NCBI RefSeq assembly: GCF_009827435.1 | Contig: NZ_WTYM01000058.1 | Location: 178,276-242,275 of the forward strand | Source: Croceibacterium salegens | GTDB lineage: Bacteria; Pseudomonadota; Alphaproteobacteria; Sphingomonadales; Sphingomonadaceae | DNA length: 64,000 nucleotides | Direction: 5' to 3' | In this document: in pieces, positions 8,133-28,390 of the stretch | Position numbering within the stretch: position 1 is the stretch's first letter | How the letters are laid out: each line of letters begins with the position of its first letter | Position numbers and translations under genes: made by a program | Notes under the pieces: model-generated | Database searches by the model: none | What the model was told of the DNA's origin: nothing | What the model saw: the letters and a program-made list of their open reading frames with translations, nothing else

Positions 8133-8155
8133 ATCGCATCTTGCGGAATTTTATG

Positions 8156-8166
8156 CTGCAGTGCAC
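8156..8166. promoter_or_regulatory. CTGC-N3-GCA box at the nasT start
   Basis: CTGCAGTGCAC lies directly before the nasT start. The same core TGCTGCARTGCA occurs before both nitrate leaders (9991 and 18889) and a related palindrome lies at 28376. Because the box ends only nine bases before the ATG at 8176, bound protein here would block transcription or start very near it. The binding protein is unknown. Confidence 0.5.
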
Positions 8167-8175
8167 AAACGCGGC

Positions 8176-8757
8176 ATGAAAGTCGCCGTCGTCGATGAAA
8201 GCGCTGCCCGTGCCTCGATCATCGTCGAGGGGCTGGCGGAGCTTGCCGGGTGCGAGCTTTTCGTCCTCACCGACCGCAGGGGCCTTCTCTCCGAAATCGA
8301 GAAGATCGCCCCCGATATCGTCCTGATCGACCTCGGCAACCCGTCGCGCGACGTCCTCGAGGAATACTTCGTCGTCAGCCGGGCGCTGGCCCGCCCGATC
8401 GCCATGTTCGTCGACGAGAGCGACGACGATGCGATCGCCGCCTCGATCGACGCCGGGGTCTCCGCCTACGTCGTCGACGGTCTCTCTGCCAACCGCATCC
8501 GGCCCCTGCTCGACCTTGCGGTGCGGCGCTTCAACGCCTTCGCCCGGCTCCAGACCGACCTTGCCGAGGCCAAGGGCAAGCTCGCCGAGCGCGACACGGT
8601 CGACCGGGCGAAGCGCATCCTGATGGACAGCAAGAAGGTGACCGAGCCCGAGGCCTATGGCGAGCTTCGCCGCAAGGCGATGTCGTCGAACAAGCGCATA
8701 TTCGAAATAGCGGAAGCCGTTGTAACGGCACACGAACTCATGGGGGGAGCGGAATGA
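8176..8757 (+). CDS. nasT: Nitrate-responsive antiterminator NasT (ANTAR domain)
   Basis: The protein (193 residues from the ATG at 8176) has a receiver-like N-terminal domain with the phosphoacceptor-position Asp-52 (IVLIDLGNP) and a coiled linker. The C-terminal ANTAR RNA-binding domain spans about residues 135-190, with DRAKRILMDSKKVTEPEAYGELRRKA. NasT proteins bind paired hairpins in nas leader mRNAs and prevent termination when nitrate is present. The next gene encodes its sensor partner NasS. An upstream GTG at 8161 would add five residues but falls inside the conserved box, so I prefer the ATG, although its ribosome binding site is weak. Its probable targets are the two leaders in this window. 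Confidence 0.92.
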   Translation: MKVAVVDESAARASIIVEGLAELAGCELFVLTDRRGLLSEIEKIAPDIVLIDLGNPSRDVLEEYFVVSRALARPIAMFVDESDDDAIAASIDAGVSAYVVDGLSANRIRPLLDLAVRRFNAFARLQTDLAEAKGKLAERDTVDRAKRILMDSKKVTEPEAYGELRRKAMSSNKRIFEIAEAVVTAHELMGGAE

Positions 8758-8770
8758 AGGGGCGGGCAAC

Positions 8771-9979
8771 GTGAGCGAGCAACTGACGATCGGCTTCCTG
8801 CCGCTGGTCGATGCGTGCCTGCCCATCCTGGCGCACGAGCATGGCTTCGCGAAGGAGGAAGGACTGCACCTGACCTTCGTGCGCGACGTCAGCTGGGCGA
8901 CGGTGCTCGACCGCTTGCTCTATGGGCACACCGACGCAGCGCACCTCGTCGCGCCGCTTGCAATCGCCACGACGCTGGGCAGGGGCCGCCCGGCCCAGCC
9001 GCTGTCCGCGCCTTTCGTCCTCGGGCTCAACGGCAATGCCGTGACGCTGTCGAGCGAGCTCGCGGCCAGGGTCGTCACTCCCGGCCTGTTCGGCGATCCC
9101 AGGGCGTGCGGCGAAGAGCTTCGGGTGGAAGCGGCTGCGGCGCTGGAGCGCGGCCGCAAGCTGCGCTTCGGCGTCGTGCACCGCTATTCGAGCCACAACT
9201 ACAAGCTGCGCTACTGGCTGGCAGCGAGCGGAATCAGGCCCGACGAGGACGTCGAGATCGTCACCGTTGCGCCGCCGTTCGTCGCCGATGCGCTGGGGAC
9301 GGGCGAGATCGACGGCGCCTGTGTCGGCGAGCCGTGGAACAGCGTCTGCGTGGAACGCGGCGTGGGTACGATCGTCCTCGCTACGGCGCAGATCTGGCGG
9401 CGCGGGGTGGAGAAGGTCCTGGCAATGCGCGAGCCGGTGCTCGAAGCCAAGCGGCCGCAGGTGGAAGCGCTGATCCGCGCCATGCGCAAGGCGGGCAGGC
9501 ACTTCATCAATTCGCAAACCTGGGACGACAGCGCCGAAATCCTGGCGCGCCCGGAGTACCTCGGCGCCGATGCCGCGCTGATCTACCGGTCGATCGCCGA
9601 CCGGCTGATCCTGACGCCCGGCGGCCGGCCGGTTCACTACCCCGACTTCATGTTCCAGCACAGCGAGGCGGCGAACTTCCCGTGGGTCAGCCAGGCGCAG
9701 TGGCTCTACTCGCAGATGGTCCGCTGGGACCACCTCGAATTCTCGTCCGAAGATGCCGAGACGGCCGCCCGCGTCTTCCGTCCTGACGTATACCGCAGTG
9801 CACTAAAAGGGACCGGCGATGCCTTGCCGGGGGCAAATTCCAAGGTCGAGGGCAGCCTCGACCAGCCGATGCAGGTGAGCACCCAGCAGGGCACCATCAC
9901 CTTGTCTCCCAATGCTTTTTTCGACGGAAGCAGTTTCGATCCGGCGCGCATCGAGGACTATCTGGACGGCCTGCCATAG
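8771..9979 (+). CDS. nasS: Cytoplasmic nitrate sensor NasS (NrtA-like)
   Basis: This 402-residue protein is homologous to the periplasmic nitrate-binding protein NrtA encoded just downstream. Shared segments include NGNAVTLSSE, SHNYKLRYWLAASGI and CVGEPWN. It has no signal peptide, so it should stay in the cytoplasm, as NasS does. In known NasS-NasT systems NasS holds NasT when nitrate is absent and releases it on nitrate binding. The GTG start at 8771 is 14 bases after the nasT stop, giving a nasTS operon. Presence of a cytosolic and an exported paralogue side by side supports the sensor assignment. Confidence 0.92.
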   Translation: MSEQLTIGFLPLVDACLPILAHEHGFAKEEGLHLTFVRDVSWATVLDRLLYGHTDAAHLVAPLAIATTLGRGRPAQPLSAPFVLGLNGNAVTLSSELAARVVTPGLFGDPRACGEELRVEAAAALERGRKLRFGVVHRYSSHNYKLRYWLAASGIRPDEDVEIVTVAPPFVADALGTGEIDGACVGEPWNSVCVERGVGTIVLATAQIWRRGVEKVLAMREPVLEAKRPQVEALIRAMRKAGRHFINSQTWDDSAEILARPEYLGADAALIYRSIADRLILTPGGRPVHYPDFMFQHSEAANFPWVSQAQWLYSQMVRWDHLEFSSEDAETAARVFRPDVYRSALKGTGDALPGANSKVEGSLDQPMQVSTQQGTITLSPNAFFDGSSFDPARIEDYLDGLP

Positions 9980-9990
9980 ACAAAAATCTA

Positions 9991-10199
9991 TGCTGCAATG
10001 CAAAAACCCCTTTACCGCGGCTGCCCGAATCAGTTATTTCCCTGCCTCGAACGGAGCGTCGCACCCGCTGATGGGTGATCACCCGGCCCTCCATTCTGTT
10101 TCAACATTGCGTGGCAACGTAGCCGCCCGATCTGACCCCCAAACGGGTCGAATCGAGGCGGTTTTTTGCGTTGTCCGCTCGAGACCGGAGTGACGAGCG
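9991..10199 (+). promoter_or_regulatory. NasT-responsive leader of the nrt operon
   Basis: This untranslated leader begins with the box TGCTGCAATGCAAAAA (CTGC-AAT-GCA core at 9993-10002). CGAATCAGTTA follows 33 bases after the box core. A hairpin at 10062-10077 (CACCC, loop GCTGAT, GGGTG) comes next, then the conserved GTGGCAACG at 10111 and an intrinsic terminator. All these elements recur at the same offsets in the leader at 18889. ANTAR proteins recognise hexaloop hairpins of this kind, so this is the expected NasT target for nrtA. The first loop base is G where A is usual. Confidence 0.85.
10123..10167 (+). terminator. Intrinsic terminator inside the nrt leader (attenuator)
   Basis: CCGCC at 10123-10127 pairs with GGCGG at 10157-10161. 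Internal pairs CGAT/ATCG and GACCC/GGGTC extend the stem, and six T residues follow. It stands 33 bp before the nrtA start, so transcription would stop before the operon unless NasT acts. Confidence 0.88.
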
Positions 10200-11639
10200 A
10201 TGACGGGATTTGGGGGATCGGCGGTTGGACGCAGGCAGGCCATCGCGGCGCTGGGGGCGGTCGCTTTCAGCCTGGCACTTGCCGGCTGCGGCAGCAGCAG
10301 CGACACCGGCACAAGCGGTGAAACCGTCGCCGCAGCGAACCTCGACGGGGCGATCGAAAAGCCCAATATCAAGCTCGGCTTCATCAAGCTCACCGACATG
10401 GCCCCGCTGGCCATCGCCAAGGAAAAGGGCTTCTTCGCCGAGGAAGGCCTCAACGTCGAACTCGAACCACAGGCCAACTGGAAGGTCCTGCTCGACGGGG
10501 TCATCGGCGGCCAGCTCGACGGCGCGCACATGCTCGCCGGGCAGCCGCTGGCGGCAACCATCGGCTACGGAACCAAGGCCGACCTCATCGCCCCGCTCAG
10601 CCTCGACCTCAACGGCAACGCGATCACGCTGTCCAACAAGGTCTGGGCGATGATCGAACCCGACCTGCCCAAGGAGGGGGGCAAGCCCGTCCACCCGATC
10701 TCCGCATCGCATCTCAAGCCGGTGGTCGCCAGCTACAAGCAGCAAGGCAAGCAGTTCAAGATGGGCATGGTCTTCCCGGTCAGCACCCACAACTACGAAC
10801 TGCGCTACTGGCTCGCCGCGGGCGGACTGAACCCGGGCTTCTACACCAATGGCGACGTCGCCGGCACGGTGGCCGCCGACGTGCCGCTCTCGGTCACTCC
10901 GCCGCCGCAGATGCCGGCGACGCTCGAGGCCGGTACGATCGACGGCTACTGCGTCGGCGAGCCGTGGAATCAGGCTGCTGTTCACAAGAAGATCGGCGTC
11001 CCGGTCATCACCGACGACGAGATCTGGCACGACAACCCCGAGAAGGTTTTTGGCCTGCGCAAGGACTTCGCCGAAAAGTATCCGGCGACCACCGCGGCGA
11101 TTCTGCGCGCGCTCATCAAGGCGCAGCAGTGGCTCGATGCCGACGGCGGCGCCAACCGGGCCGAGGCCGTCAAGATCCTCAGCCAGCCGAACTATGTCGG
11201 TGCCGACGCGGATGTGATCGCCGCGAGCATGACCGGCAAGTTCACCTTCGCGCCGGGCGACACACGCGACGCCAAGGGCTTCAACATCTTCTTCGACAAG
11301 TACGCCGGTTACCCGTTCTACTCCGACGCCGTCTGGTACCTCACCCAGATGCGCCGTTGGGGCCAGATCGCCGACGACAAGACCGACCAGTGGTATTTCG
11401 ACACCGCCAAGGCCGTCTATCGCCCGGACCTCTACCTCGCCGCCGCCAAGAAGCTGGTCGCCGATGGCGCCATCCCCGCCGCTTCGGTGCCCGAGACCGA
11501 CGGGTTCCGCGCCCCGCAGGGCGGCTTCATCGACGGTGTGACCTACGACGCCAAGGCGCCCAACGCTTACCTCGCCAAGTTCGCGATCGGCCTCAAGCAG
11601 GGCCAGCGCGTCACCGCCTCGGGCGTCAGCGGCAGCTGA
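10200..11639 (+). CDS. nrtA: Nitrate ABC transporter substrate-binding lipoprotein
   Basis: The protein (479 residues) is an NrtA/CynA-type periplasmic binding protein. Its N-terminus has twin arginines (GRRQAIAALGA, residues 10-20) and a lipobox LAGC with Cys-30, so it is probably a Tat-exported lipoprotein anchored on the outer face of the inner membrane. Family hallmarks include NGNAITLSNKVW, THNYELRYWLAAGGL and GYCVGEPWN. It would deliver nitrate (or nitrite; cyanate is a related possibility given cynS downstream) to NrtB. It is the first gene after the attenuated leader. Confidence 0.93.
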   Translation: MTGFGGSAVGRRQAIAALGAVAFSLALAGCGSSSDTGTSGETVAAANLDGAIEKPNIKLGFIKLTDMAPLAIAKEKGFFAEEGLNVELEPQANWKVLLDGVIGGQLDGAHMLAGQPLAATIGYGTKADLIAPLSLDLNGNAITLSNKVWAMIEPDLPKEGGKPVHPISASHLKPVVASYKQQGKQFKMGMVFPVSTHNYELRYWLAAGGLNPGFYTNGDVAGTVAADVPLSVTPPPQMPATLEAGTIDGYCVGEPWNQAAVHKKIGVPVITDDEIWHDNPEKVFGLRKDFAEKYPATTAAILRALIKAQQWLDADGGANRAEAVKILSQPNYVGADADVIAASMTGKFTFAPGDTRDAKGFNIFFDKYAGYPFYSDAVWYLTQMRRWGQIADDKTDQWYFDTAKAVYRPDLYLAAAKKLVADGAIPAASVPETDGFRAPQGGFIDGVTYDAKAPNAYLAKFAIGLKQGQRVTASGVSGS

Positions 11640-11668
11640 TGTCCGAGGGACTGGACAGGAGTTCTACC

Positions 11669-12724
11669 ATGGCAACCGCCTTTGCAGATTTGCAGCCCGA
11701 CGAGACCACGCCGCAGGTAACGGCAACGGTCCCAACCGGAGCTGCCCCGGTGCCCGAAACCGCGGCCACTCCGGCCAAGGGCAAAGCCAGTCCCGTAGCC
11801 GCAAGGATCGCCGGAATGGCCAAGGCCCTGGTCGCCCCGCTGATCGGGATCGCCGCCTTCCTGGCGCTCTGGGCCGTGTTGGCGCCGCAGGTCGATACCT
11901 CGCTCGGTGCCTTGCCGGGGCCGGTGGAAGTCGCCGAGCAGGGCAGTGCGCTTTACGACGAGTGGTCCGCCGCGAGGGAAGCCAAGGCGGAATTCTACGC
12001 CCAGCAGGATGCCAGCAACGCCGCGGCCATCGCCGCCGGAAATCCGGCCGGGGTGCGCGATTTCGAATATGCCGGGCCGCCGACATTCCTCGACCAGATC
12101 TTCACCTCGCTGAAGACGGTGGCGCTGGGCTTCGTGCTGGCGACGCTCGTGGCGGTGCCGATCGGCCTGGTCTGCGGCCTCTCGCCGCTGGTGAACGCCG
12201 CGATCAACCCGCTGGTGCAGATCATGAAGCCGGTCAGTCCGCTGGCCTGGCTGCCGATCGTGACGATGGTCATCTCGGCGATGATCACCAGCGCCGACCC
12301 GCTCCTGCCCAAGGCCTTCGTGATCTCGGCGCTGGTCGTCATGCTCTGTTCGCTCTGGCCGACGCTGATCAATACGGCGGTCGGCGCCAGCAGCATCGAC
12401 AAGGACCTGCTCAACGTCGGCCGCGTGCTCCGGCTCGGCTGGTTCGCCAAGCTGACGCGGCTGATCCTGCCGTCTTCGCTGCCCTACATCTTCACCGGCA
12501 TGCGCCTCTCGCTCGGCGTGGGTTGGATGGTGCTGATCGCAGCGGAAATGCTCGCCCAGAACCCCGGCCTCGGCAAGTTCGTGTGGGACGAGTTCCAGAA
12601 CGGATCGAGCCAGTCGCTCGCCCGCATCATGTTCGCGGTGGTCGTCATCGGCTTCATCGGCTTCGCGCTCGACCGGCTGATGATGTTCCTCCAGGCGCTC
12701 GCCTCCAAGAACCACACGGTGTGA
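11669..12724 (+). CDS. nrtB: Nitrate ABC transporter permease
   Basis: This 351-residue inner-membrane protein has a Pro/Ala-rich cytoplasmic N-terminus, a first hydrophobic segment at about 50-70, a periplasmic loop with many charged residues and then the permease core of about five membrane segments. The sequence EMLAQNPGLGKFVWDEFQNG corresponds to the cytoplasmic coupling loop of NrtB/SsuC-type permeases. The ATG at 11669 follows AGGAG. An alternative ATG at 11639, overlapping the nrtA stop, would add ten residues. It forms the channel for the substrate bound by NrtA, driven by the fused ATPase encoded next. Confidence 0.9.
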   Translation: MATAFADLQPDETTPQVTATVPTGAAPVPETAATPAKGKASPVAARIAGMAKALVAPLIGIAAFLALWAVLAPQVDTSLGALPGPVEVAEQGSALYDEWSAAREAKAEFYAQQDASNAAAIAAGNPAGVRDFEYAGPPTFLDQIFTSLKTVALGFVLATLVAVPIGLVCGLSPLVNAAINPLVQIMKPVSPLAWLPIVTMVISAMITSADPLLPKAFVISALVVMLCSLWPTLINTAVGASSIDKDLLNVGRVLRLGWFAKLTRLILPSSLPYIFTGMRLSLGVGWMVLIAAEMLAQNPGLGKFVWDEFQNGSSQSLARIMFAVVVIGFIGFALDRLMMFLQALASKNHTV

Positions 12725-12726
12725 CC

Positions 12727-14394
12727 ATGGACCAGCCGATCCTCTCGCTGCGCGGCGTCGCCAAGTCCTACGGGGACACCAATGTCCTCGACGGCATCGA
12801 TCTCGACGTGGCCGAAGGCGAATTCGTCGCCATCCTCGGCTTCTCGGGAGCGGGCAAGACCACGCTGATCAACGCCATCGCCGGGCTCGTCGCGCCCGAC
12901 GCGGGCGAGATCCTGCTAAAGGGCAAGGCGGTCAGCGAGCCGGGCAAGGACCGGGGGCTGGTGTTTCAGTCCTACTCGCTGTTCCCCTGGCTCACCGTGC
13001 AGCAGAACATCGCGCTGGCGGTCGATGCGGTTCACAGGGATCGCAGCCGGGCCGAGCGCGCCGCGCTGGTGAAGCAGAAGGTCGAACTGGTCGGGCTCGG
13101 CCACGCTATGGAACGCAAGCCGGCGCAGCTCTCCGGCGGGATGCGCCAGCGCGTGGCGGTCGCACGGGCCCTCGCCATGGAGCCGGAAATCCTGCTCATG
13201 GACGAGCCGCTCTCGGCGCTCGACGCGCTGACCCGCGCCAAGCTGCAGGACGAGATCGAGCGCATCCGCAAGGAGGAAGGGCGGACCATCGTCCTCGTCA
13301 CGAACGATGTCGATGAAGCGCTTCTTCTTGCCGATCGGGTCGCTGTTCTGACGCCGGCGCCCGCTGCAACGATAGGTCAGGTGTTCGACGTCGACGTCGC
13401 CCGGCCGCGCGACCGCGAAGCCGTCAACGACGACCTCCATTTCCAGGCGCTGCGCAAGCGCATCGTCTCCTATCTCGGCTCGCTCAACGCCGAGGCGGGA
13501 ACGGTCGGCGAAAGTTCGGTCGACCTGCCCAACGTCACCCCGCTAGACCTTGCGCCGCCGCCCCAGGCCTACCGCGAGGCGGCACAAAGCGCGGTCACGG
13601 ATCGCTATCTCGAGTTCTTCAAGCTCGACAAGGTCTACCCGACGCCGATTGGGCCGCTGAAGGTCGTCGAGGACTTCAACCTGCTGATGGACAGGGGTGA
13701 GTTCGTCTCGCTGATCGGCCACTCGGGTTGCGGCAAGTCGACCGTGCTGACCATGGCAGCCGGCCTCAACGAGATCAGCGGCGGGGGCATCGTGCTCGAC
13801 AACCGCGAGATCGACATCGCCGGGCCGGACAAGGCGGTGGTCTTCCAGGCCCCGAGCCTGATGCCCTGGCTGACAGCGCGGCAGAACGTCGCGCTTGGCG
13901 TCGAGCGGGTCTATCCGCACGCCTCGAAGGCCGAGCGCCGCGACATCGTCGATTACTACCTCGACCGGGTCGGGCTGGGCGACGCGAAGGAGCGGATGGC
14001 GGCGGAAATGTCGAACGGCATGCGCCAGCGCGTCGGCATCGCCCGTGCCTTCGCCCTGTCGCCGCGGCTGCTGCTGCTCGACGAACCCTTCGGCATGCTC
14101 GACAGCCTGACCCGCTGGGACCTGCAGGACGTGCTGGTCGAGACCTGGAACCGCACCAAGGTCACCGCGATCATGGTCACCCACGACGTTGACGAAGCGA
14201 TCCTGCTGGCTGACCGGGTCGTGATGATGACCAACGGGCCGAACGCCACGATCGGCAAGATTCTTAAGGTTGACCTGCCGCGTCCGCGCGACCGCAAGGC
14301 GTTGCTCGACCATCCGAAGTTCTACCAATACCGGCAGGAGGTCCTGCACTTCCTGGCGGAATACGATCACGGTCCGTCGGCTAAGGCCGCCTGA
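12727..14394 (+). CDS. Fused double ABC ATPase of the nitrate transporter
   Basis: This 555-residue protein carries two complete ABC nucleotide-binding domains in one chain, equivalent to NrtC plus NrtD. Domain 1 (about 1-250) has Walker A GFSGAGKTT (38-46), signature LSGGM (135-139) and Walker B ending Glu-160, but Asn-193 (VTNDVDEA) where the H-loop His is expected. Domain 2 (about 290-550) has Walker A GHSGCGKST (331-339), a modified signature MSNGM (428-432), Walker B Glu-453 and a normal His-486 (VTHDVDEA). It begins three bases after the nrtB stop. The departures in the two halves would place both changes at the same ATP site. Confidence 0.92.
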   Translation: MDQPILSLRGVAKSYGDTNVLDGIDLDVAEGEFVAILGFSGAGKTTLINAIAGLVAPDAGEILLKGKAVSEPGKDRGLVFQSYSLFPWLTVQQNIALAVDAVHRDRSRAERAALVKQKVELVGLGHAMERKPAQLSGGMRQRVAVARALAMEPEILLMDEPLSALDALTRAKLQDEIERIRKEEGRTIVLVTNDVDEALLLADRVAVLTPAPAATIGQVFDVDVARPRDREAVNDDLHFQALRKRIVSYLGSLNAEAGTVGESSVDLPNVTPLDLAPPPQAYREAAQSAVTDRYLEFFKLDKVYPTPIGPLKVVEDFNLLMDRGEFVSLIGHSGCGKSTVLTMAAGLNEISGGGIVLDNREIDIAGPDKAVVFQAPSLMPWLTARQNVALGVERVYPHASKAERRDIVDYYLDRVGLGDAKERMAAEMSNGMRQRVGIARAFALSPRLLLLDEPFGMLDSLTRWDLQDVLVETWNRTKVTAIMVTHDVDEAILLADRVVMMTNGPNATIGKILKVDLPRPRDRKALLDHPKFYQYRQEVLHFLAEYDHGPSAKAA

Positions 14395-14448
14395 CGCTCT
14401 GGGAGGGGCCGGGGCGGCAGAGGGGCCGTACCCGCGAAAACGACATCG

Positions 14449-14461
14449 CCGGATTATCCGG
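14449..14461. promoter_or_regulatory. 13-bp palindrome in the nrtCD-porin gap
   Basis: CCGGAT-T-ATCCGG is a perfect palindrome in the 142-bp gap before the porin gene. It may be an operator or a short mRNA stem. The rest of the gap is G-rich and shows no clear promoter or terminator. Confidence 0.3.
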
Positions 14462-14536
14462 TTCCAACGGCGGGCAATGGCGCTCGCTTCTTGCCGAGGA
14501 GGCCCAGGAGGGTCTCCCGAACAGGGATCTGCGCCA

Positions 14537-15745
14537 ATGAAAATCGCCTTCAGCCTGCTTGCCGCCACAGCGACCGTCGCCTTCGCCACCCCGGCTTTTG
14601 CCAAGGACGGGGACCCGGTCGAGATCGCCGACGACGTCACCCTCGACCTGACGCTCGATGCGCGCCTGCGCTACGAAACGGTCGATCAGGCGAGCGCCGT
14701 CAACGATGCCGAGGCGCTGACCCTGCGCCTACGTTTCGGCGGATCGATCAAGGTCTCGAACTTCTCGGTCCTCGCCGAAGCGGAAACCACTCGCGCCTTC
14801 CAGTCGGACTACAACGACACCCTGCCGTTCAATGGACTGGAGCCGTTCCCGATCGTCGCCGACCCGGAGAGTTTCGAGCTCAACCGCGCGCAAGTCTCGT
14901 GGATGAAGGACGGCACCGGCGTCACGATCGGCCGCCAGCGCATCATCCTCGACAATGCCCGTTTCGTCGGCAACGTCGGCTGGCGGCAGAACGAGCAGAC
15001 CTTCGACGCCGTGCGCGGGCAGGCGAAGATCGGGCCGGTCACGCTCGATGCGACCTATTCGGATTCGCAGCGCACGATTTTCGGCGCCGATAGCCCGAAC
15101 GAGCATTTCGACGGCGACATCGTGCTGCTCAACGCCGGGGCCAAGGTCGACATCCTCGACATCAAGGCCTTCGCTTACCTGATCGACTACGACACCCGGC
15201 TCGCCTTCTCGAGCCAGACTTACGGCGTGCTCGCCAAGGCGGCGATCCCGATAGGCAGCTTCAAGCTCAACGCTACGGCGAGCTATGCCAGCCAGTCGGA
15301 CTATGGCGCCAACCCGGTCAGCTACACGACCGACTATTTCAACGCCGAGCTCGGCGGTACGCTGGCCGGCATCACGCTCGGCGCGGGCTACGAGGAGCTT
15401 GGCAGCGATGGCGTCGCCTCGTTCCAGACCCCGCTCGCCACGCTCCATGCCTTCAACGGCTGGGCCGACCTGTTCCTGACCACCCCCGCCGCGGGCCTGC
15501 GCGACTACTACGCCAAGGCGGGCACGGCGGTGAAGGTGAAAGGCCTGACCGTCTTCAATGCGGCGGTGGTCTACCATCAGTTCGACAGCGCCTTTGGCGG
15601 TCTCGACTACGGCAGCGAGTGGGACGCCTCGTTCGGCTTCAAGGTCGGTCCGGTCGCCCTGCTGGCGAAGTACGCGGACTTCAACTCCAGCGGGTTCGCA
15701 TCCGACACGCAAAAATTCTGGCTCCAAGCCGAATACAGCTTCTGA
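14537..15745 (+). CDS. Alginate_exp-type outer-membrane porin
   Basis: The protein (402 residues) starts with a Sec signal peptide (residues 1-22, ending PAFAKD). It then shows alternating amphipathic strands and ends in aromatic EYSF, the C-terminal Phe typical of outer-membrane barrels. Its pattern fits the alginate-export (AlgE-like) porin family. Placed between the nitrate ABC transporter and the nitrite channel, it most likely lets nitrate or nitrite cross the outer membrane. Transport specificity cannot be told from the sequence. Confidence 0.85.
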   Translation: MKIAFSLLAATATVAFATPAFAKDGDPVEIADDVTLDLTLDARLRYETVDQASAVNDAEALTLRLRFGGSIKVSNFSVLAEAETTRAFQSDYNDTLPFNGLEPFPIVADPESFELNRAQVSWMKDGTGVTIGRQRIILDNARFVGNVGWRQNEQTFDAVRGQAKIGPVTLDATYSDSQRTIFGADSPNEHFDGDIVLLNAGAKVDILDIKAFAYLIDYDTRLAFSSQTYGVLAKAAIPIGSFKLNATASYASQSDYGANPVSYTTDYFNAELGGTLAGITLGAGYEELGSDGVASFQTPLATLHAFNGWADLFLTTPAAGLRDYYAKAGTAVKVKGLTVFNAAVVYHQFDSAFGGLDYGSEWDASFGFKVGPVALLAKYADFNSSGFASDTQKFWLQAEYSF

Positions 15746-15760
15746 GAAAGGGGAATCATC

Positions 15761-16591
15761 ATGGCATATCTTGCGCCTAGCGAATTTGTTTCGAAGCTCG
15801 TCGATGCGGGCGAATCCAAGATCTTCATGTCGACCAAGGACACGCTGATCCGCGCGTACATGGCCGGCGCGACACTGGCCCTGGCGGCGGCCTTTGCCGT
15901 CACGATCAACGTCCAGACCGGCCAGCCGCTGGCCGGCGCGGTGCTGTTCCCAGTCGGTTTCTGCCTGCTCTACCTGCTGGGGTACGACCTGCTTACCGGC
16001 GTCTTCGTGCTGTGCCCGCTGGCGGTGTGGGACAAACGTCCCGGCTGCACCTGGGGCGGGGTCCTGCGCAACTGGGGGCTGGTGTTCGTCGGCAACTTCG
16101 CCGGGGCGCTGACCACGGCGGTGATGATGGCGATCTACTTCACCTATGGTTTCCAGACCGAACCGAGCGAAGTCGGCGCCAAGCTGGCCGGTATCGGCGT
16201 CGCCCGTACGCTCGGTTACGAGCAGTACGGCTGGGCCGGCTGGATGACGATCTTCGTGCGCGGCATGCTGTGCAACTGGATGGTTTCGACCGGTGTCGTG
16301 GGCGCGCAGGTCTCGACCAGCGTCTCGGGCAAGGTCCTCGCCATGTGGATGCCGATCATGCTGTTCTTCTACATGGTCTTCGAGCACTCGATCGTGAACA
16401 TGTTCCTGTTCCCGACGGCGCTGATGATGGGCGGCGGCTTCACCATCGGCGACTACTTCTGGTGGAACGAAATCCCGACCGTTCTCGGCAACCTGGTCGG
16501 CGGCGTCACCTTCACCGGGCTGATGCTCTATTCGACGCACTACAAGACCTCGAAGAGCCGCAAGCCGGCGGCCCTCAAGGTCACGGCCTGA
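15761..16591 (+). CDS. nirC: Formate/nitrite transporter family channel
   Basis: This 276-residue protein has the six-helix architecture of the FNT family. Recognisable features are the first membrane segment AGATLALAAAFAVTI, the internal repeat RGMLCNWMVSTGVV and the fifth-helix region FFYMVFEHSIVNMFLFP, whose His lies in the pore in FocA/NirC. It likely moves nitrite across the inner membrane, either importing it or preventing its build-up. It lies 15 bases after the porin stop, within the nrt operon. Confidence 0.92.
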   Translation: MAYLAPSEFVSKLVDAGESKIFMSTKDTLIRAYMAGATLALAAAFAVTINVQTGQPLAGAVLFPVGFCLLYLLGYDLLTGVFVLCPLAVWDKRPGCTWGGVLRNWGLVFVGNFAGALTTAVMMAIYFTYGFQTEPSEVGAKLAGIGVARTLGYEQYGWAGWMTIFVRGMLCNWMVSTGVVGAQVSTSVSGKVLAMWMPIMLFFYMVFEHSIVNMFLFPTALMMGGGFTIGDYFWWNEIPTVLGNLVGGVTFTGLMLYSTHYKTSKSRKPAALKVTA

Positions 16592-16646
16592 ACGAGGCAG
16601 GAGGAAGGGCGGCCGGCGATGAACCGGCCGCCCGCCACCCGGCATC

Positions 16647-18407
16647 ATGGCGGCACTGCCAACACCTTCGGCGAGAAGTGCATCCGGGGGGACGAGCACC
16701 CTCCGGATCACGCTCGACCAGTACTCCACCGCCGGGACCAAGGCGGAGAACCAGGACTTTCACGGCGCGCTCGAGCCCGAGGGCGCGCTGCTTGCCACCA
16801 AGGGCATCGCCGTTGCGCTGGCCGACGGGATCAGCACCAGCAAGCTCGGCGCGGCCGCGGCGGAAACCGCGGTGAAGACCTTCCTCACGGACTACTTCTG
16901 CACCTCCGAAGGCTGGTCGGTACAGACCTCGGCCGAGCGAGTGATCGCGGCGACCAACAGCTGGATGTACGCGCAAAACCGCGGGACCTTCGGCGGCCCG
17001 CCGCAGGAGAGCGAGCGCGAGCGGGGGTTGGTCTGCACACTGTCCGCGCTCGTCCTCAAATCGCGCACCGCGCATGTCTTCCACGTCGGCGATGCGCGCG
17101 TCGCGCTCGTCCGGCTGGGTCGGCTCGAGCCGCTCACCGAGGCGCACCGCGTCGATCTGGGAGGCGGCGACAGCTATCTCGGCCGCGCGCTCGGCGTGAA
17201 CCGCAACGTCGAGATCGACTACCGCTCGGTCCGCCTCGAACCCGGCGACACATTCGTCCTGACCACCGACGGGGTACACGAATACCTGCCGGATGCCGCC
17301 CTGCTGCGCCTGCTCGGCGACGGGGCCGAGGCGATCGCCCGCGCGGCCCTCGACGCGGGGAACGGCGACAACCTCACGGTGCAGGTCGTCACCGTCGAGG
17401 ACTTGCCCGCCGGAGAGATCGGCGATCTTCTCGGGGCCGACGCCGCGCTGCCGCCCGCACCGCAACTGCGGCCGGGCGACAGCTTCGCCGGGTACGAGGT
17501 ATTGCGCGAACTCCACGCTGGAAGCCGCAGCCACGTCTATCTCGTGCGTGACGAAGCGGATGGCCGCAAAGTCGCGCTCAAGGTGCCCTCGACCGAGCAT
17601 GGCCAGCAGGCCGCCCGGCTGCAGGAACTGCTCCTCGAAGAATGGGTCATGCGCCGGCTCGATCACCCGTCGCTGCTTTCCGCGCCGCCGCAACGCCGCG
17701 CACGCAGCCACGCTTTCGGCGTCGCGGACTACATCGTCGGGCAGAGCCTGCGCCAGTGGATGCTCGATCGCGGGCCGGCTGATCTCGAACCCGCGCGCGC
17801 CATCGTCCGCCAGGTCGCGGCGGGGCTGCAGGCGATGCACCGGCGCGAGATGGTCCACCGCGACCTGAGGCCGCACAACATCATGATCGACCCCAACGGC
17901 GTGGTGCGGATCATCGATTTCGGATCGGTCCAGGTCGCCGGGCTCGACGAACTGGCCCCGGGCCTCGCCGGCGAGGCGGCCTTTGCCGGGACCATGCAAT
18001 ACAGCGCGCCGGAAGTGTACCTGGGCGAGCCCGCGACCCGGCAGAGCGACTTCTATTCGCTCGGAGTCATCGCCTACCAGCTGCTGACCGGCGACCTGCC
18101 CTACGGTCCGCGCGTGGCCAATGCGACGACGCCGCAGGCCCAGCGCAAGCTGCGCTACGTCCCCGCCACGGAACGCAATCCGGAAGTGCCGGACTGGGTG
18201 GACGCGGCGCTGGCCAAGGCCGTCGCCGTCGATCCCCGCAAGCGCTACGAGGAACTGAGCGAGTTCGTCTACGACATCGCCAATCCCAACAAGTCGCTCG
18301 CCAACCCGGAGCCGCGGCCGCTGCTGCAGCGCGATCCGCTGCGCCTGTGGCAGGCGATTGCAGCCCTGCTCGCCATCGCCCTGATCGTTTCCCTGCTCAC
18401 CCGATGA
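16647..18407 (+). CDS. Bifunctional PP2C phosphatase / Ser-Thr protein kinase
   Basis: This 586-residue protein joins two opposing activities. Residues about 20-250 are a PP2C phosphatase with metal-ligand segments ENQDFHG (34-40), ADGIS (59-63), GDAR (148-151), TTDGVH (206-211) and GDNLTV (240-245). Residues about 282-530 are a protein kinase with Lys-312 (VALK), catalytic HRD at 404-406 (VHRDLRPHN) and DFG at 424-426. A hydrophobic segment at about 565-583 anchors the C-terminus in the membrane, with both domains in the cytoplasm. Similar fusions occur in other proteobacterial nitrate-assimilation clusters, but their targets are unknown. It is between nirC and cynS. Confidence 0.9.
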   Translation: MAALPTPSARSASGGTSTLRITLDQYSTAGTKAENQDFHGALEPEGALLATKGIAVALADGISTSKLGAAAAETAVKTFLTDYFCTSEGWSVQTSAERVIAATNSWMYAQNRGTFGGPPQESERERGLVCTLSALVLKSRTAHVFHVGDARVALVRLGRLEPLTEAHRVDLGGGDSYLGRALGVNRNVEIDYRSVRLEPGDTFVLTTDGVHEYLPDAALLRLLGDGAEAIARAALDAGNGDNLTVQVVTVEDLPAGEIGDLLGADAALPPAPQLRPGDSFAGYEVLRELHAGSRSHVYLVRDEADGRKVALKVPSTEHGQQAARLQELLLEEWVMRRLDHPSLLSAPPQRRARSHAFGVADYIVGQSLRQWMLDRGPADLEPARAIVRQVAAGLQAMHRREMVHRDLRPHNIMIDPNGVVRIIDFGSVQVAGLDELAPGLAGEAAFAGTMQYSAPEVYLGEPATRQSDFYSLGVIAYQLLTGDLPYGPRVANATTPQAQRKLRYVPATERNPEVPDWVDAALAKAVAVDPRKRYEELSEFVYDIANPNKSLANPEPRPLLQRDPLRLWQAIAALLAIALIVSLLTR

Positions 18408-18421
18408 AAGGACCGCCCGCC

Positions 18422-18865
18422 ATGATGACCAAACAGGATGTAACCACGATGATCCGCGCGGCGAAGCGCGAGAGCGGCAAGACCTGGGCCGAGATTTCCG
18501 CGGCGACGGGATTGAGCGAGGTGTTCGTGACCTCCGCCTGTCTCGGCATGAACAGCCTCCTGCCCGATGCGGCGGCCAAGGTGGTCGAGTTCCTCGGCCT
18601 GCCCGCCGAGGCGGCCACGGTCCTTGCCGAGTTTCCGACCAAGCAGTTCGACAAGACCGTCCCGACCGACCCCTGCATTTACCGTTGGTACGAGATCACC
18701 GGCGTCTTCGGCGAGGCGTTCAAGGAGCTGGTGCAGGAGAAGTTCGGCGACGGCATCATGAGCGCGATCGATTTCGACATGGAAATCGAACGGGTTGCGC
18801 ACGAGAAGGGAGACCGGGTGCAGGTCGTGATGAGGGGCAAGTTCCTGCCCTACAAGAGCTGGTAG
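18422..18865 (+). CDS. cynS: Cyanate hydratase (cyanase)
   Basis: The 147-residue protein matches cyanase in length and layout: an N-terminal helical HTH-like domain and the C-terminal catalytic dimerisation domain. The segments IYRWYEI (with the catalytic Arg and Glu) and KFGDGIMSAIDF (with the catalytic Ser) are characteristic. It converts cyanate and bicarbonate to ammonia and CO2, giving another nitrogen source or removing toxic cyanate. The ATG at 18422 has AAGGA upstream; an ATG at 18404 overlapping the kinase stop is an alternative. It ends the nrt operon, just before the second leader. Confidence 0.94.
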   Translation: MMTKQDVTTMIRAAKRESGKTWAEISAATGLSEVFVTSACLGMNSLLPDAAAKVVEFLGLPAEAATVLAEFPTKQFDKTVPTDPCIYRWYEITGVFGEAFKELVQEKFGDGIMSAIDFDMEIERVAHEKGDRVQVVMRGKFLPYKSW

Positions 18866-18888
18866 GATCGCAAGGGGCGGCAAGTGTT

Positions 18889-19081
18889 GCTGCAGTGCAA
18901 AAAAGGCTTGCCGCCAAGTAGTCGAATCGGTTAAAAACCGACCCACAGGAAGTGCGCCCGTCCATCGGCGGACGATCAGGCCCTTCCGCTCAAACCAGTT
19001 ACAGAACGTGGCAACGACGCCGCCAGTCCAACCGGACCTGGCGGTTTTTTTTGCGTGCGTTCGCGACAAGGGACTTGAACG
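18889..19081 (+). promoter_or_regulatory. NasT-responsive leader of the nir-nas operon
   Basis: The leader opens with TGCTGCAGTGCAAAAA (CTGC-AGT-GCA core 18890-18899), followed by CGAATCGGTTA 33 bases after the core. A hairpin at 18959-18974 (CGTCC, loop ATCGGC, GGACG) has A at loop position 1 and G at position 4, the known ANTAR signature. A second stem at 18995-19011 (CCAGT, loop TACAGA, ACgTGG with one bulge) leads into GTGGCAACG at 19008 and the terminator. Offsets of box, first hairpin, GTGGCAACG and terminator equal those in the nrt leader. This predicts joint control by NasT. Confidence 0.9.
19020..19052 (+). terminator. Intrinsic terminator inside the nirB leader (attenuator)
   Basis: CCGCCAG-TCC pairs with GGA-C-CTGGCGG around the loop AACC, with one bulged base. 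Eight T residues follow at 19045-19052. It lies 29 bp before nirB and would shut the operon off in the absence of antitermination. Confidence 0.92.
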
Positions 19082-21562
19082 ATGAACGCCCAGACCAGGA
19101 TCGATCCGCCAAAACGCGAAAGGCTCGTGGTGATCGGCAACGGCATGGCCGGCTGCCGTGCGGTGGAGGAAGTGCTCGAGCGCGATCCCGGCCGCTTCGA
19201 TATCGTGATCTTCGGCGCCGAACCGCGGGTCAACTACAACAGGATCATGCTCTCCCCGGTGCTAGCCGGCGAAAAGACGTTCGACGAGATCGTCATCAAC
19301 ACCGCCGAATGGTACGCCGAAAACGGCATCGAGCTCGTCAGCGGCGATCCGGTCGAACACATCGACCGCGAGACAATGTCGGTAATCAGCCGCTCGGGCC
19401 GGGTCGAACCCTACGACCGGCTGCTGATAGCGACCGGTTCCGATCCGTTCATCATTCCCATTCCCGGCAACGACTTTCCGGGCGTCGTTACCTTTCGCGA
19501 TCTCGACGATGTCGACCGGATGCTCGCCGCCGCGGAACTCGGCGGCGATGCTGTGGTGATCGGCGGTGGCCTGCTGGGGCTGGAGGCGGCGCATGGCCTC
19601 TCCCTGCGAGGAATGAAGGTCACCGTCGTTCATCTCATGCCGACCTTGATGGAGCGGCAGCTCGACGAGGCCGCCGGCTACCTGCTGCGGCAGGAACTGG
19701 AGAGCCGCGGGCAGACCATCCTGACCAGCGCTAACACCCGGGTGATCCACGGGATCGAGGGCCGCGTCGCCGGGATCGAGCTCGAGGACGGGACGCGGGT
19801 CAAGGCCGACATCGTGGTCATGGCGGCAGGCATCAAGCCCTCGATCACGCTGGCCAAGGCCGCGGGGCTCGAATGCGAGCGCGGCATCATGGTGGACGAC
19901 CACATGGTCACCTCCGACCCCGCCATCCTTGCGGTCGGCGAATGCGTCCAGCACCGCGGCCTGTGCTACGGCCTCGTCGCCCCGCTGTGGGAGATGTGCC
20001 GGGCACTGGCCGATTATTTGACCGACGCGCCCACCGGCTACCTCGGCTCGGTCACATCGACCAAGCTCAAGGTGAGCGGCATCGACCTGTTTTCGGCCGG
20101 CGACTTCTCCGGCGGCGCGGACTGCGAGGACATCGTAATGCGCGACGCCGCGCGCGGGGTCTACAAGCGCGTGGTCGTGAAGGGCGACAAGGTCGTCGGC
20201 GCGGTGCTCTACGGCGATACCGCGGACGGCAACTGGTATTTCGACCTCCTCAAGAAGGAGGAGGACATTTCCGACATTCGCGAGGCGCTGATCTTCGGAC
20301 AGGCCTTCGCCGCCGGGGGCGCGCTCGCGGACCCTAATGCCGCCGTTGCCGCTCTTTCGGACGACGCAGAAATCTGCGGCTGCAACGGCGTTTCCAAGGG
20401 CAAGGTCGTCCAGTGCATCGTTGGCGGGGCGCACAGCCTCGATGCGGTGCGCTCGCAGTGCAAGGCCTCGGGCAGCTGCGGCAGCTGCACCAACCTGGTC
20501 GAGAGCTTGCTGGCGATCACGCTCGGCGGCGAGGTGCAGACCGGGCCGAAGACGATGTGCAAGTGCACGAGCTTCACGCATGACGACGTCCGCCGCAACA
20601 TCGTGGAGAAGCAACTCAAGCTGATCCCCGAGGTGATGCAGGAACTGCACTGGACCACCCCGGACGGCTGCTCCTCGTGCCGCCCGGCGCTCAACTACTA
20701 CCTGCTGTGCGCCTGGCCCGGCGAATACCAGGACGACGAGAAGAGCCGCTTTGTCAACGAGCGGCTCCACGCCAACATCCAGAAGGACGGCACCTATTCG
20801 GTCGTGCCGCGCTTCTTCGGAGGGATCACCAATCCCACCGAACTGCGCGCGATCGCCGACGTGGTCGAGAAGTACGATGCGCCGATGGTCAAGGTGACCG
20901 GCGGCCAGCGGCTCGACATCTTCGGCATCAGGAAGGAGGACCTGCCCGCCGTCTGGGCCGACCTCAACGCGGCCGGCCTCGTCTCGGGCCATGCCTACGG
21001 CAAGGCGCTGCGCACGGTGAAGACCTGCGTGGGCAGCGAATGGTGCCGCTTCGGCACTCAGGATTCGACCGGCCTGGGAGTCAAGCTCGAGCACCTGACC
21101 TGGGGCAGCTACATGCCGCACAAGTTCAAGATGGCGGTCAGCGGCTGCCCGCGCAATTGCGCCGAGGCTACGATCAAGGACTTCGGCGTGATCTGCGTCG
21201 ACAGCGGTTACGAACTGCACGTCGGCGGCAACGGCGGCATCCACCTGCGCGGCACCGACCTGCTGTGCAAGGTCGAGACCGAGGAGGAGGCGATGGAGAC
21301 CTGCATCGCTTTCATCCAGCTCTACCGCGAAACCGGCCACTATCTCGAACGCACCGCCCCCTGGCTCGAACGCAAGGGGCTCGACTGGATCAAGGCACAG
21401 CTGTTCGACGATCCCGGTTCGATCCCCGAACTCGCCGCCCGGTTCCGGCTGTCGCAGAAGTTCTGGCAGGTCGATCCCTGGGCGCGCCGCGCCGGGGGCG
21501 CCCACCGCAACCTGCACAGCCACCTCGCCGAAATCCGCCCGCTTGCCATGGAGAATGCATGA
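19082..21562 (+). CDS. nirB: Assimilatory nitrite reductase large subunit
   Basis: This 826-residue enzyme reduces nitrite to ammonium with NAD(P)H in the cytoplasm. Domains in order are an N-terminal FAD/NAD-binding region (GNGMAG near residue 19; second Rossmann VIGGGLLGLEAA near 160), a BFD-type [2Fe-2S] region (CGCNG and CGSC) and the C-terminal siroheme/[4Fe-4S] domain with paired motifs CVGSEWC and CPRNCAE. A length of about 830 residues is normal. It is the first gene behind the second NasT-type leader. Its last bases overlap the start of nirD. Confidence 0.96.
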   Translation: MNAQTRIDPPKRERLVVIGNGMAGCRAVEEVLERDPGRFDIVIFGAEPRVNYNRIMLSPVLAGEKTFDEIVINTAEWYAENGIELVSGDPVEHIDRETMSVISRSGRVEPYDRLLIATGSDPFIIPIPGNDFPGVVTFRDLDDVDRMLAAAELGGDAVVIGGGLLGLEAAHGLSLRGMKVTVVHLMPTLMERQLDEAAGYLLRQELESRGQTILTSANTRVIHGIEGRVAGIELEDGTRVKADIVVMAAGIKPSITLAKAAGLECERGIMVDDHMVTSDPAILAVGECVQHRGLCYGLVAPLWEMCRALADYLTDAPTGYLGSVTSTKLKVSGIDLFSAGDFSGGADCEDIVMRDAARGVYKRVVVKGDKVVGAVLYGDTADGNWYFDLLKKEEDISDIREALIFGQAFAAGGALADPNAAVAALSDDAEICGCNGVSKGKVVQCIVGGAHSLDAVRSQCKASGSCGSCTNLVESLLAITLGGEVQTGPKTMCKCTSFTHDDVRRNIVEKQLKLIPEVMQELHWTTPDGCSSCRPALNYYLLCAWPGEYQDDEKSRFVNERLHANIQKDGTYSVVPRFFGGITNPTELRAIADVVEKYDAPMVKVTGGQRLDIFGIRKEDLPAVWADLNAAGLVSGHAYGKALRTVKTCVGSEWCRFGTQDSTGLGVKLEHLTWGSYMPHKFKMAVSGCPRNCAEATIKDFGVICVDSGYELHVGGNGGIHLRGTDLLCKVETEEEAMETCIAFIQLYRETGHYLERTAPWLERKGLDWIKAQLFDDPGSIPELAARFRLSQKFWQVDPWARRAGGAHRNLHSHLAEIRPLAMENA

Positions 21563-28375: not shown

Positions 28376-28390
28376 TGCTGCATCGCAGCA
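28376..28390. promoter_or_regulatory. Perfect palindrome TGCTGCATCGCAGCA (PhaR-like box)
   Basis: TGCTGC-ATC-GCAGCA matches CTGCN3GCAG, the operator reported for PhaR/AniA-type carbon-storage regulators. It lies 60 bp upstream of the alpha-glucosidase start and 187 bp upstream of glgP. It is the most symmetric of the related boxes in the window. Which protein binds is inference. Confidence 0.55.

Follow-up and report, generated by a model that had tools for sequence, protein, structure and literature searches.

The nitrate assimilation genes of Croceibacterium salegens (Sphingomonadaceae) lie in a stretch of 64,000 nucleotides (nt), called here the window (RefSeq assembly GCF_009827435.1, contig NZ_WTYM01000058.1, positions 178,276 to 242,275 of the forward strand), and two operons of this cluster, one for transport headed by an nrtA-like gene and one for reduction headed by nirB, are each preceded by a leader. 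We propose that each leader is probably a two-input unit, in which a PhaR-like box with its promoter would work on the DNA and an ANTAR antiterminator, the target of the NasT protein encoded nearby, on the RNA. From anatomy and homology, ANTAR antitermination is predicted with high confidence at both leaders. The sequences establish the hairpins P1 and P2, the covariation of P1, the overlap of P2 with the terminator, the conserved box and promoter spacing, and the presence of one ANTAR gene with two targets; that NasT binds the leaders and that they respond to nitrate is what we infer. Literature is cited by PMC number, from partial texts throughout.

Two hairpins and a terminator in each leader

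The same elements stand in the same places in both leaders (Table 1). Counted from a CTGC core at 9993 in the nrtA leader and at 18890 in the nirB leader, CGAATCAGTTA/CGAATCGGTTA lies at +33, a hairpin of five base pairs and six loop bases at +69 to +84, the GTGGCAACG box at +118 and the 5′ arm of the terminator (GCCGCC) at +129. These offsets confirm, to within one base, those of a first-pass annotation of this DNA, which had also placed the opening 16-mers at 9991 and 18889: TGCTGCAATGCAAAAA does begin at 9991, and TGCTGCAGTGCAAAAA begins at 18888. The 3′ arms of the terminators differ (+164 at nrtA vs +150 at nirB), and therefore the equal promoter-to-terminator length that was claimed holds only as far as the 5′ arm. 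Over their first 130 nt the leaders, aligned without gaps, are identical at 64 positions; their likeness exceeds chance, since 95 leaders, from 56 of the 80 named loci of relatives, were found to have this P2-terminator architecture.

In both leaders there are two hairpins with loops of six bases and stems of 3 bp or more, as in the ANTAR dual-hexaloop motif, the one at +69 being P1; both P2 loops have A at position 1 (A1) and G at position 4 (G4). The P1 loop of nirB, ATCGGC, also has A1 and G4, while that of nrtA, GCTGAT, has G4 but G at position 1 (G1), an exchange seen in 13 of 75 P1 loops of relatives by a finder for which G4 was obligatory and position 1 could be A or G, with A favoured. 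P2 (GUGGC-AACGNN-GCCGC) has the GTGGCAACG box as its 5′ half, and its 3′ arm doubles as the 5′ arm of the terminator in both leaders. P2 and terminator are mutually exclusive in the ANTAR motif (PMC3369931); here the overlap itself is observed, and the predicted exclusion of the terminator by P2 follows from the common arm.

Covariation was examined in an alignment of 24 out of 37 candidate rows (linkers between P1 and P2 of 28-37 nt; genome G036 excluded), in which P1 was set by hand for one G066 and one G069 leader and the row G033nir, misaligned at P1, was retained. Four of the five pairs of the P1 stem are changed on both sides. Jointly, P1 and P2 have 97.1% of their cells paired, with both-side changes in 25 cells vs 7.0 in shuffles (0/500) and a covariation score of 0.295 vs 0.106 in shuffles (0/500), the structure being derived from the same sequences. 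The closing pair is C:G in 23 of 24 P1 and in all 24 P2 hairpins, which is the preference of NasR in systematic evolution of ligands by exponential enrichment (PMC7496416). P2 is invariant within the alignment, as expected because its arm has two partners, and TGGCAA.G is invariant across 18 nirB leaders whose selection did not involve P2 (17 picked through a box-like 15-mer, plus that of the window); the finder behind the candidate rows, the distant members and the set of 95 leaders required A1 and G4 in the P2 loop. More distant members carry compensatory P2 stems: GUGGC/GCCGC, AUGGC/GCCAU, ACAGC/GCUGU and AAGGC/GCCUU.

P1 may moreover stand at the tip of a taller hairpin, P0, which by the folds would shorten the single-stranded gap to P2 to about 14 and 20 nt. 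Across the 24 related leaders there is a tendency for the sequences on either side of P1 to pair (Stouffer z -4.46, relative to shuffles that kept base composition only, not dinucleotides), two of the 24 having fewer flank-to-flank pairs than shuffles, and the nrtA P0 stretch folds no better than its shuffles (z 0.04). A second A1/G4 hairpin inside the linker, nearer P2, was found in none of 24 linkers, with 0.9 expected.

A covariance model built from the 24 leaders, R1, was used for searches. In this genome of 3.6 Mb it matches only the two leaders at E<=0.05 (E-values of 1.8e-24 and 8.7e-22, both for training sequences), and the single ANTAR match, nasT, adjoins a target; together with the hexaloops and the P2-terminator overlap, this supports the two-target NasT/ANTAR regulon put forward in the first-pass annotation. 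Among 119 genomes of the family, R1 at E<=1e-6 matched 22 of 40 with NasS/NirB (nas+) and none of 79 without (nas-); 15 of the 22 had given training sequences and 7 had not. At the loose E<=0.05 there are matches in 69 of the 119, so weak matches mean little. At E<=1e-4 it matched 22 of 196 genomes of the order, all within the family, and 4 of 190 of the class, one of them outside the family. The genome, family, order and class searches used Infernal's stricter filters, which lose weak matches; as seen under these filters, the long-linker leader form is clade-specific. Some relatives have additional leaders, which occur before a cobA-like gene (L165), about 1.8 kb before an MFS transporter gene (L162) and before an apparent formate/nitrite transporter gene with a PP2C-kinase gene (L163).

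Generic tools saw less of this: at gathering score Rfam gave no match in the window, and the nrtA leader scanned at E<=5 gave only a chance match to F6; a simple terminator scan listed a terminator-like site inside the nirB-leader terminator and did not list that of the nrtA leader. Could these be plain constitutive terminators, for example of nasS, with hairpins that have no partner protein? The nrtA box lies only 11 nt past nasS, as this would have it, but P1 covaries, the terminator overlap of P2 is seen at both genes, the gene preceding nirB is an unrelated one and strong model matches track the nas genes, which makes the idea highly improbable.

A PhaR-like box and a predicted promoter on the DNA

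The first-pass annotation had taken the opening 16-mers and the CGAATCRGTTA motif for parts of the RNA leaders. This is not supported: we read them as probable operator and promoter DNA. The core TGCRNYGCA is present at 8157, 9994 and 18891, the first of these in a third copy of the 12-mer TGCTGCAGTGCA, overlooked earlier, which begins at 8154, 22 nt 5′ of the nasT ATG (8176). This core equals that of the published PhaR consensus, which reads TGCRNYGCASMA in Bradyrhizobium (PMC6201568) and NYGCRNYGCRN with AT-rich arms in Sinorhizobium meliloti (PMC12542648). The box is found in 84 of the 95 leaders (56/80 named loci) and, in an earlier set from which one false G013 match was dropped and to which the L162 and L163 leaders were added, in 27 of 38 leaders vs 1.3 expected; the core stands before nasT in 55 of the 80 named loci, vs 0.106 expected per 240 nt. 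Most loci without a detected leader come from Sphingopyxis and Sphingomonas, so the box figure applies to the wider clade to which the window belongs (Erythrobacter, Altererythrobacter, Novosphingobium and kin). The box is less frequent across a broader set of the family (nasT 19/39, after nasS 18/39, nirB 14/29).

With moderate confidence we take PhaR to be the factor at the box; it is the predicted binder, and the sign of its effect is likewise a prediction. A PhaR match (PF07879) is present here and in 114 of the 119 family genomes, and the motif extends beyond this cluster: the genome has 111 copies of TGCTGCANTGCA, counted with at most one mismatch, vs 42 for a backward control. A perfect palindromic box, TGCTGCATCGCAGCA, was also observed at 28376-28390 of the window in a divergent intergenic region, between what we take, from the translations, to be an alpha-amylase-like gene (minus strand) and a glycogen-phosphorylase-like gene (plus strand, open reading frame from 28419), which suggests that carbon storage may be controlled there too. 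Further copies stand upstream of a phasin gene located after phaC and, at a distance of about 200 nt, of a ppdK-like gene; in S. meliloti, ppdK is bound by PhaR (PMC12542648). That a different regulator binds the box, for instance a nitrogen regulator, is possible but somewhat unlikely: nasT, nrtA and nirB are all nitrogen genes and NtrC acts on nasT in Paracoccus, but the box, judged by eye, departs from the published NtrC site, YGCMN4TTN2TRGCA (PMC5424462); it has the PhaR core and sits at phasin and ppdK-like genes in the same genome.

Downstream of the box, GANTC occurs within 25-42 nt in 69 of the 84 boxed leaders, and in all 69 the distance is 32-36 nt. Aligned on GANTC, these 69 relatives present CTT(G/T), an 18-nt spacer and the TA of a -10 element; because the set was selected on GANTC, its G, A, T and C are constant in this logo, and the preceding C, the internal A and the following TA were free to vary. 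The logo indicates that CGAATCRGTTA ends in the -10 element and that the RNA would start about 50 nt past the CTGC core, just 5′ of P1. By eye, the leaders have no GG-N10-GC, as sought for a sigma-54 site. Another way to explain the motif is to regard CGAATC as a CcrM-methylated GcrA site tying the nitrate genes to the cell cycle, for which the constant place of GANTC and the presence of a gcrA gene could be cited. We consider this improbable: the third base of GANTC is A in 67 of 69 and not free, 15 of the 84 boxed leaders have no GANTC at that place, and CGAATCA/CGAATCG fails YGAKTCK, the extended GcrA site of Caulobacter, from a paper that found no extended preference in Brevundimonas subvibrioides (PMC7987155).

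Spacing and linker geometry

The identical offsets of the two leaders had been interpreted as exact conservation of promoter-to-terminator length, and variable offsets in related genomes had been named beforehand as an observation that would speak against it. Such offsets were found: they are identical within 4 of 32 relatives' loci with two boxed leaders (4 of 24 when only single-box leaders are counted), and offsets coincide in 14% of random pairs of relatives' leaders; a value of 83 for G218 in this comparison looks spurious. Exact identity is thereby lost, and what remains is a narrow range, strongest in the promoter. The distance from box to P2 is 117.0 nt in 75 single-box leaders (standard deviation (SD) 3.8, range 95-124; SD 3.76, vs 3.60 over all 84 boxed leaders).

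Is the total length itself selected, for transcription timing or folding? A box-to-P2 distance of 114-121 nt is kept by 75 of the 84 boxed leaders (leaders with two boxes being scored by the box closest to 117) and by 67 of the 75 with a single box, despite diverged linker sequence, and to this extent the earlier claim of selected spacing survives. We nevertheless find selection on the total unlikely, given the rarity of identical offsets, the range of 73-155 nt among distant members with a recognisable box and the lack of compensation: the two RNA segment lengths correlate positively (rho 0.28 in a trimmed set, 0.44 in an earlier one), which argues that nothing offsets one segment by the other to hold the total. 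In the trimmed set (66 of 95 leaders, with linkers of 28-40 nt and offsets of 101-129 nt, so that spreads come out too small), box-to-GANTC measures 33.8 nt (SD 0.87, n=53), the linker 33.0 nt (SD 1.46) and P2-to-terminator-arm 44.0 nt (SD 3.98). The tightest interval (SD 0.9) is thus one on the DNA, and it is promoter geometry.

The linker between P1 and P2 is 33 nt in both window leaders and, untrimmed, 30-36 nt in 71 of the 83 leaders for which P1 was called, some of the longer values probably being wrong P1 calls. Offsets of nirB leaders span 79-171, and five leaders of distant relatives (L029, L101, L107, L129, L030) are compact, with linkers of 15-17 nt, so two geometries exist within one family; four of these five carry other P2 stems (CAGC/GCTG type).

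Several observations weigh against reading the leaders as two-input units. In EutV leaders the linker has 5-12 nt, 14 nt cut induction drastically and 20 additional nt abolished antitermination in vitro (PMC3369931, PMC8934654); the 33 nt of the window leaders exceed this tolerance, and a short eut-like linker is found in neither. As the 2012 definition of the ANTAR motif allows a variable linker, this counts against EutV-like geometry and not against membership in the ANTAR family. The P1 loop of nrtA (10067-10072) starts with G where A1 matters in EutV and NasR, and mutating A1 weakened EutV induction (PMC3369931); NasT binding may be weaker at nrtA than at nirB. A simple consensus promoter scan called no promoter at either leader, and 24 of the 80 named loci gave no leader. 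As to PhaR, the nasT box fits the full Bradyrhizobium consensus, but the nrtA and nirB boxes run AAA where it has SMA; the box also stands at genes without a known PhaR link, and many nas+ genomes, nearly all with PhaR, have no box (at nirB, 15 of 29). Counts of the 12-mer TGCTGCRNYGCA in genomes that lost PhaR test it as the binder weakly and do not decide: they are low in the PhaR-less genus g25 (5 and 4, control 1 and 1) and reach 18 vs 6 in G017, where PhaR was not found and the nas promoters have no box; counts are high in G097 and G116 (48 vs 4 and 30 vs 5), which have no PhaR match in assemblies of 660 and 360 contigs, and low in some genomes with PhaR (G044 12 vs 12, G053 11 vs 5, G043 23 vs 14).

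Cluster layout, proposed mechanism and meaning

The cluster runs nasT, nasS, first leader, nrtA, nrtB, nrtCD, porin, formate/nitrite transporter, PP2C-kinase fusion, cyanase, second leader, nirB, nirD, molybdopterin nitrate reductase and cobA, with nitrate ABC permease-like and ATPase families downstream of the nrtA-like gene. The names nirD and cobA are presumptive and given mainly by position; nirD gave no Pfam match. The relatives of NasT we take to be the EutV, NasR, AmiR and Rv1626 chains. The role given to NasS is that of the NasS literature (PMC3795266). Two neighbours deserve mention: the cyanase gene (18347-18865) is part of the transport half and immediately precedes the nirB leader, and a PP2C-phosphatase/Ser-Thr-kinase fusion (16647-18407) sits within the cluster, a similar open reading frame being found in genome G013 behind a third ANTAR leader (L163) and a probable formate/nitrite transporter.

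Table 1. Features of the nasT-nirB region, in window coordinates
Feature	Position	Strand	Remarks
PhaR-like box before nasT	8154..8168	+	TGCTGCAGTGCACAA; full match to TGCRNYGCASMA
nasT	8176..8757	+	receiver-like N-terminus and ANTAR domain, probable RNA-binding antiterminator; PF03861 E 8e-17
nasS	8771..9979	+	NrtA-like, probable nitrate/nitrite sensor holding NasT; PF13379; adjoins nasT
PhaR-like box, nrtA promoter	9991..10006	+	core TGCAATGCA 9994-10002; 11 nt after nasS
Predicted sigma-70-like promoter, nrtA	10011..10040	+	-35 TTTACC 10011-10016, GAATC 10027-10031, -10 TATTTC 10035-10040; predicted start ~10047
P0, extended hairpin with P1 at tip, nrtA leader	10049..10096	+	fold z 0.04; pairing z -0.42
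P1 hexaloop hairpin, nrtA leader	10062..10077	+	CACCC[GCTGAT]GGGTG; loop opens with G instead of A
P2 hexaloop hairpin, nrtA leader	10111..10126	+	GTGGC[AACGTA]GCCGC; contains GTGGCAACG box
Intrinsic terminator, nrtA leader	10122..10167	+	5′ arm common with P2; z -3.98
nrtA-like	10200..11639	+	nitrate ABC transporter binding protein, first transport-operon gene; PF13379
PhaR-like box, nirB promoter	18888..18903	+	core TGCAGTGCA 18891-18899
Predicted promoter, nirB	18908..18937	+	-35 TTGCCG 18908-18913, GAATC 18924-18928, -10 TAAAAA 18932-18937; predicted start ~18944
P0, extended hairpin with P1 at tip, nirB leader	18948..18987	+	fold z -1.60; pairing z -1.93
P1 hexaloop hairpin, nirB leader	18959..18974	+	CGTCC[ATCGGC]GGACG (A1, G4)
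P2 hexaloop hairpin, nirB leader	19008..19023	+	GTGGC[AACGAC]GCCGC
Intrinsic terminator, nirB leader	19019..19052	+	5′ arm common with P2; z -2.64
nirB	19082..21562	+	nitrite reductase large subunit, first reductase-operon gene; TIGR02374 E 1.1e-280

The leaders resemble several known systems. With the eut leaders of EutV (PMC3369931, PMC8934654) they share two hexaloops with G4 and mostly A1, C:G closing pairs, a P2 arm common with the terminator and an ANTAR protein with a receiver-like domain; they differ in the linker, mostly 30-36 nt here, in P1 standing atop a longer hairpin, in the G1 of the nrtA P1 loop and in the sensor, which is NasS and not a histidine kinase. The nasF leader of Klebsiella oxytoca is likewise a nitrate-operon leader with a two-hairpin motif and read-through on nitrate, but NasR senses nitrate itself, whereas sensor (NasS) and antiterminator (NasT) are separate proteins here (PMC7496416). 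The same protein pair, NasS-NasT, operates in the alphaproteobacteria Paracoccus denitrificans and Bradyrhizobium diazoefficiens, where hairpins also precede nas genes and Paracoccus NasT binds the nasA leader RNA; the available portions of these papers describe no PhaR box or fixed 33-nt linker, and Paracoccus nasT has an NtrC site (PMC3795266, PMC5424462, PMC6759348). The PhaR regulon shares the core TGCRNYGCA and the sites at phasin and ppdK genes; nasT, nrtA and nirB are not listed as targets in the same partial texts, in which changes of nirK and nap are reported for Bradyrhizobium (PMC6201568, PMC12542648, PMC10888616). No work joining PhaR to nitrate assimilation or nasT emerged from a search of the literature, likewise in partial texts, and the PhaR-like box at 84 of 95 leaders and the long-linker form look new.

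The mechanism that we propose has two stages. On the DNA, PhaR, a sensor of polyhydroxybutyrate (PHB), would bind the box, about 49 nt 5′ of the predicted start and at a fixed distance from a sigma-70-like promoter, and would probably tune initiation at nrtA, at nirB and, from the box adjoining its start codon, at nasT. On the RNA, the transcript would begin just 5′ of the long hairpin with P1 at its tip, and some 33 nt past P1 either P2 or the terminator would form, as they share the GCCGC arm. Without nitrate, NasT would be held by NasS and the terminator would form; with nitrate, free NasT would bind P1 and P2, P2 would block the terminator, and transcription would read on into the transport and reductase operons.

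For the Sphingomonadaceae as a whole, we regard as about evenly poised the wider proposal that nitrate transport, nitrite/nitrate reduction and NasT are all under direct control by PhaR, in series with antitermination, so that carbon-reserve and nitrate signals are both needed, and that the NasT leaders use a long-linker geometry, with a tall hairpin carrying P1 and about 33 nt between P1 and P2, outside the hand-over model of EutV. If true, it would mean a direct wire between PHB carbon storage and nitrate assimilation in a large environmental group, acting at three promoters at once, and the short-linker rule drawn from EutV would be challenged by the many leaders that keep a linker of 30-36 nt.

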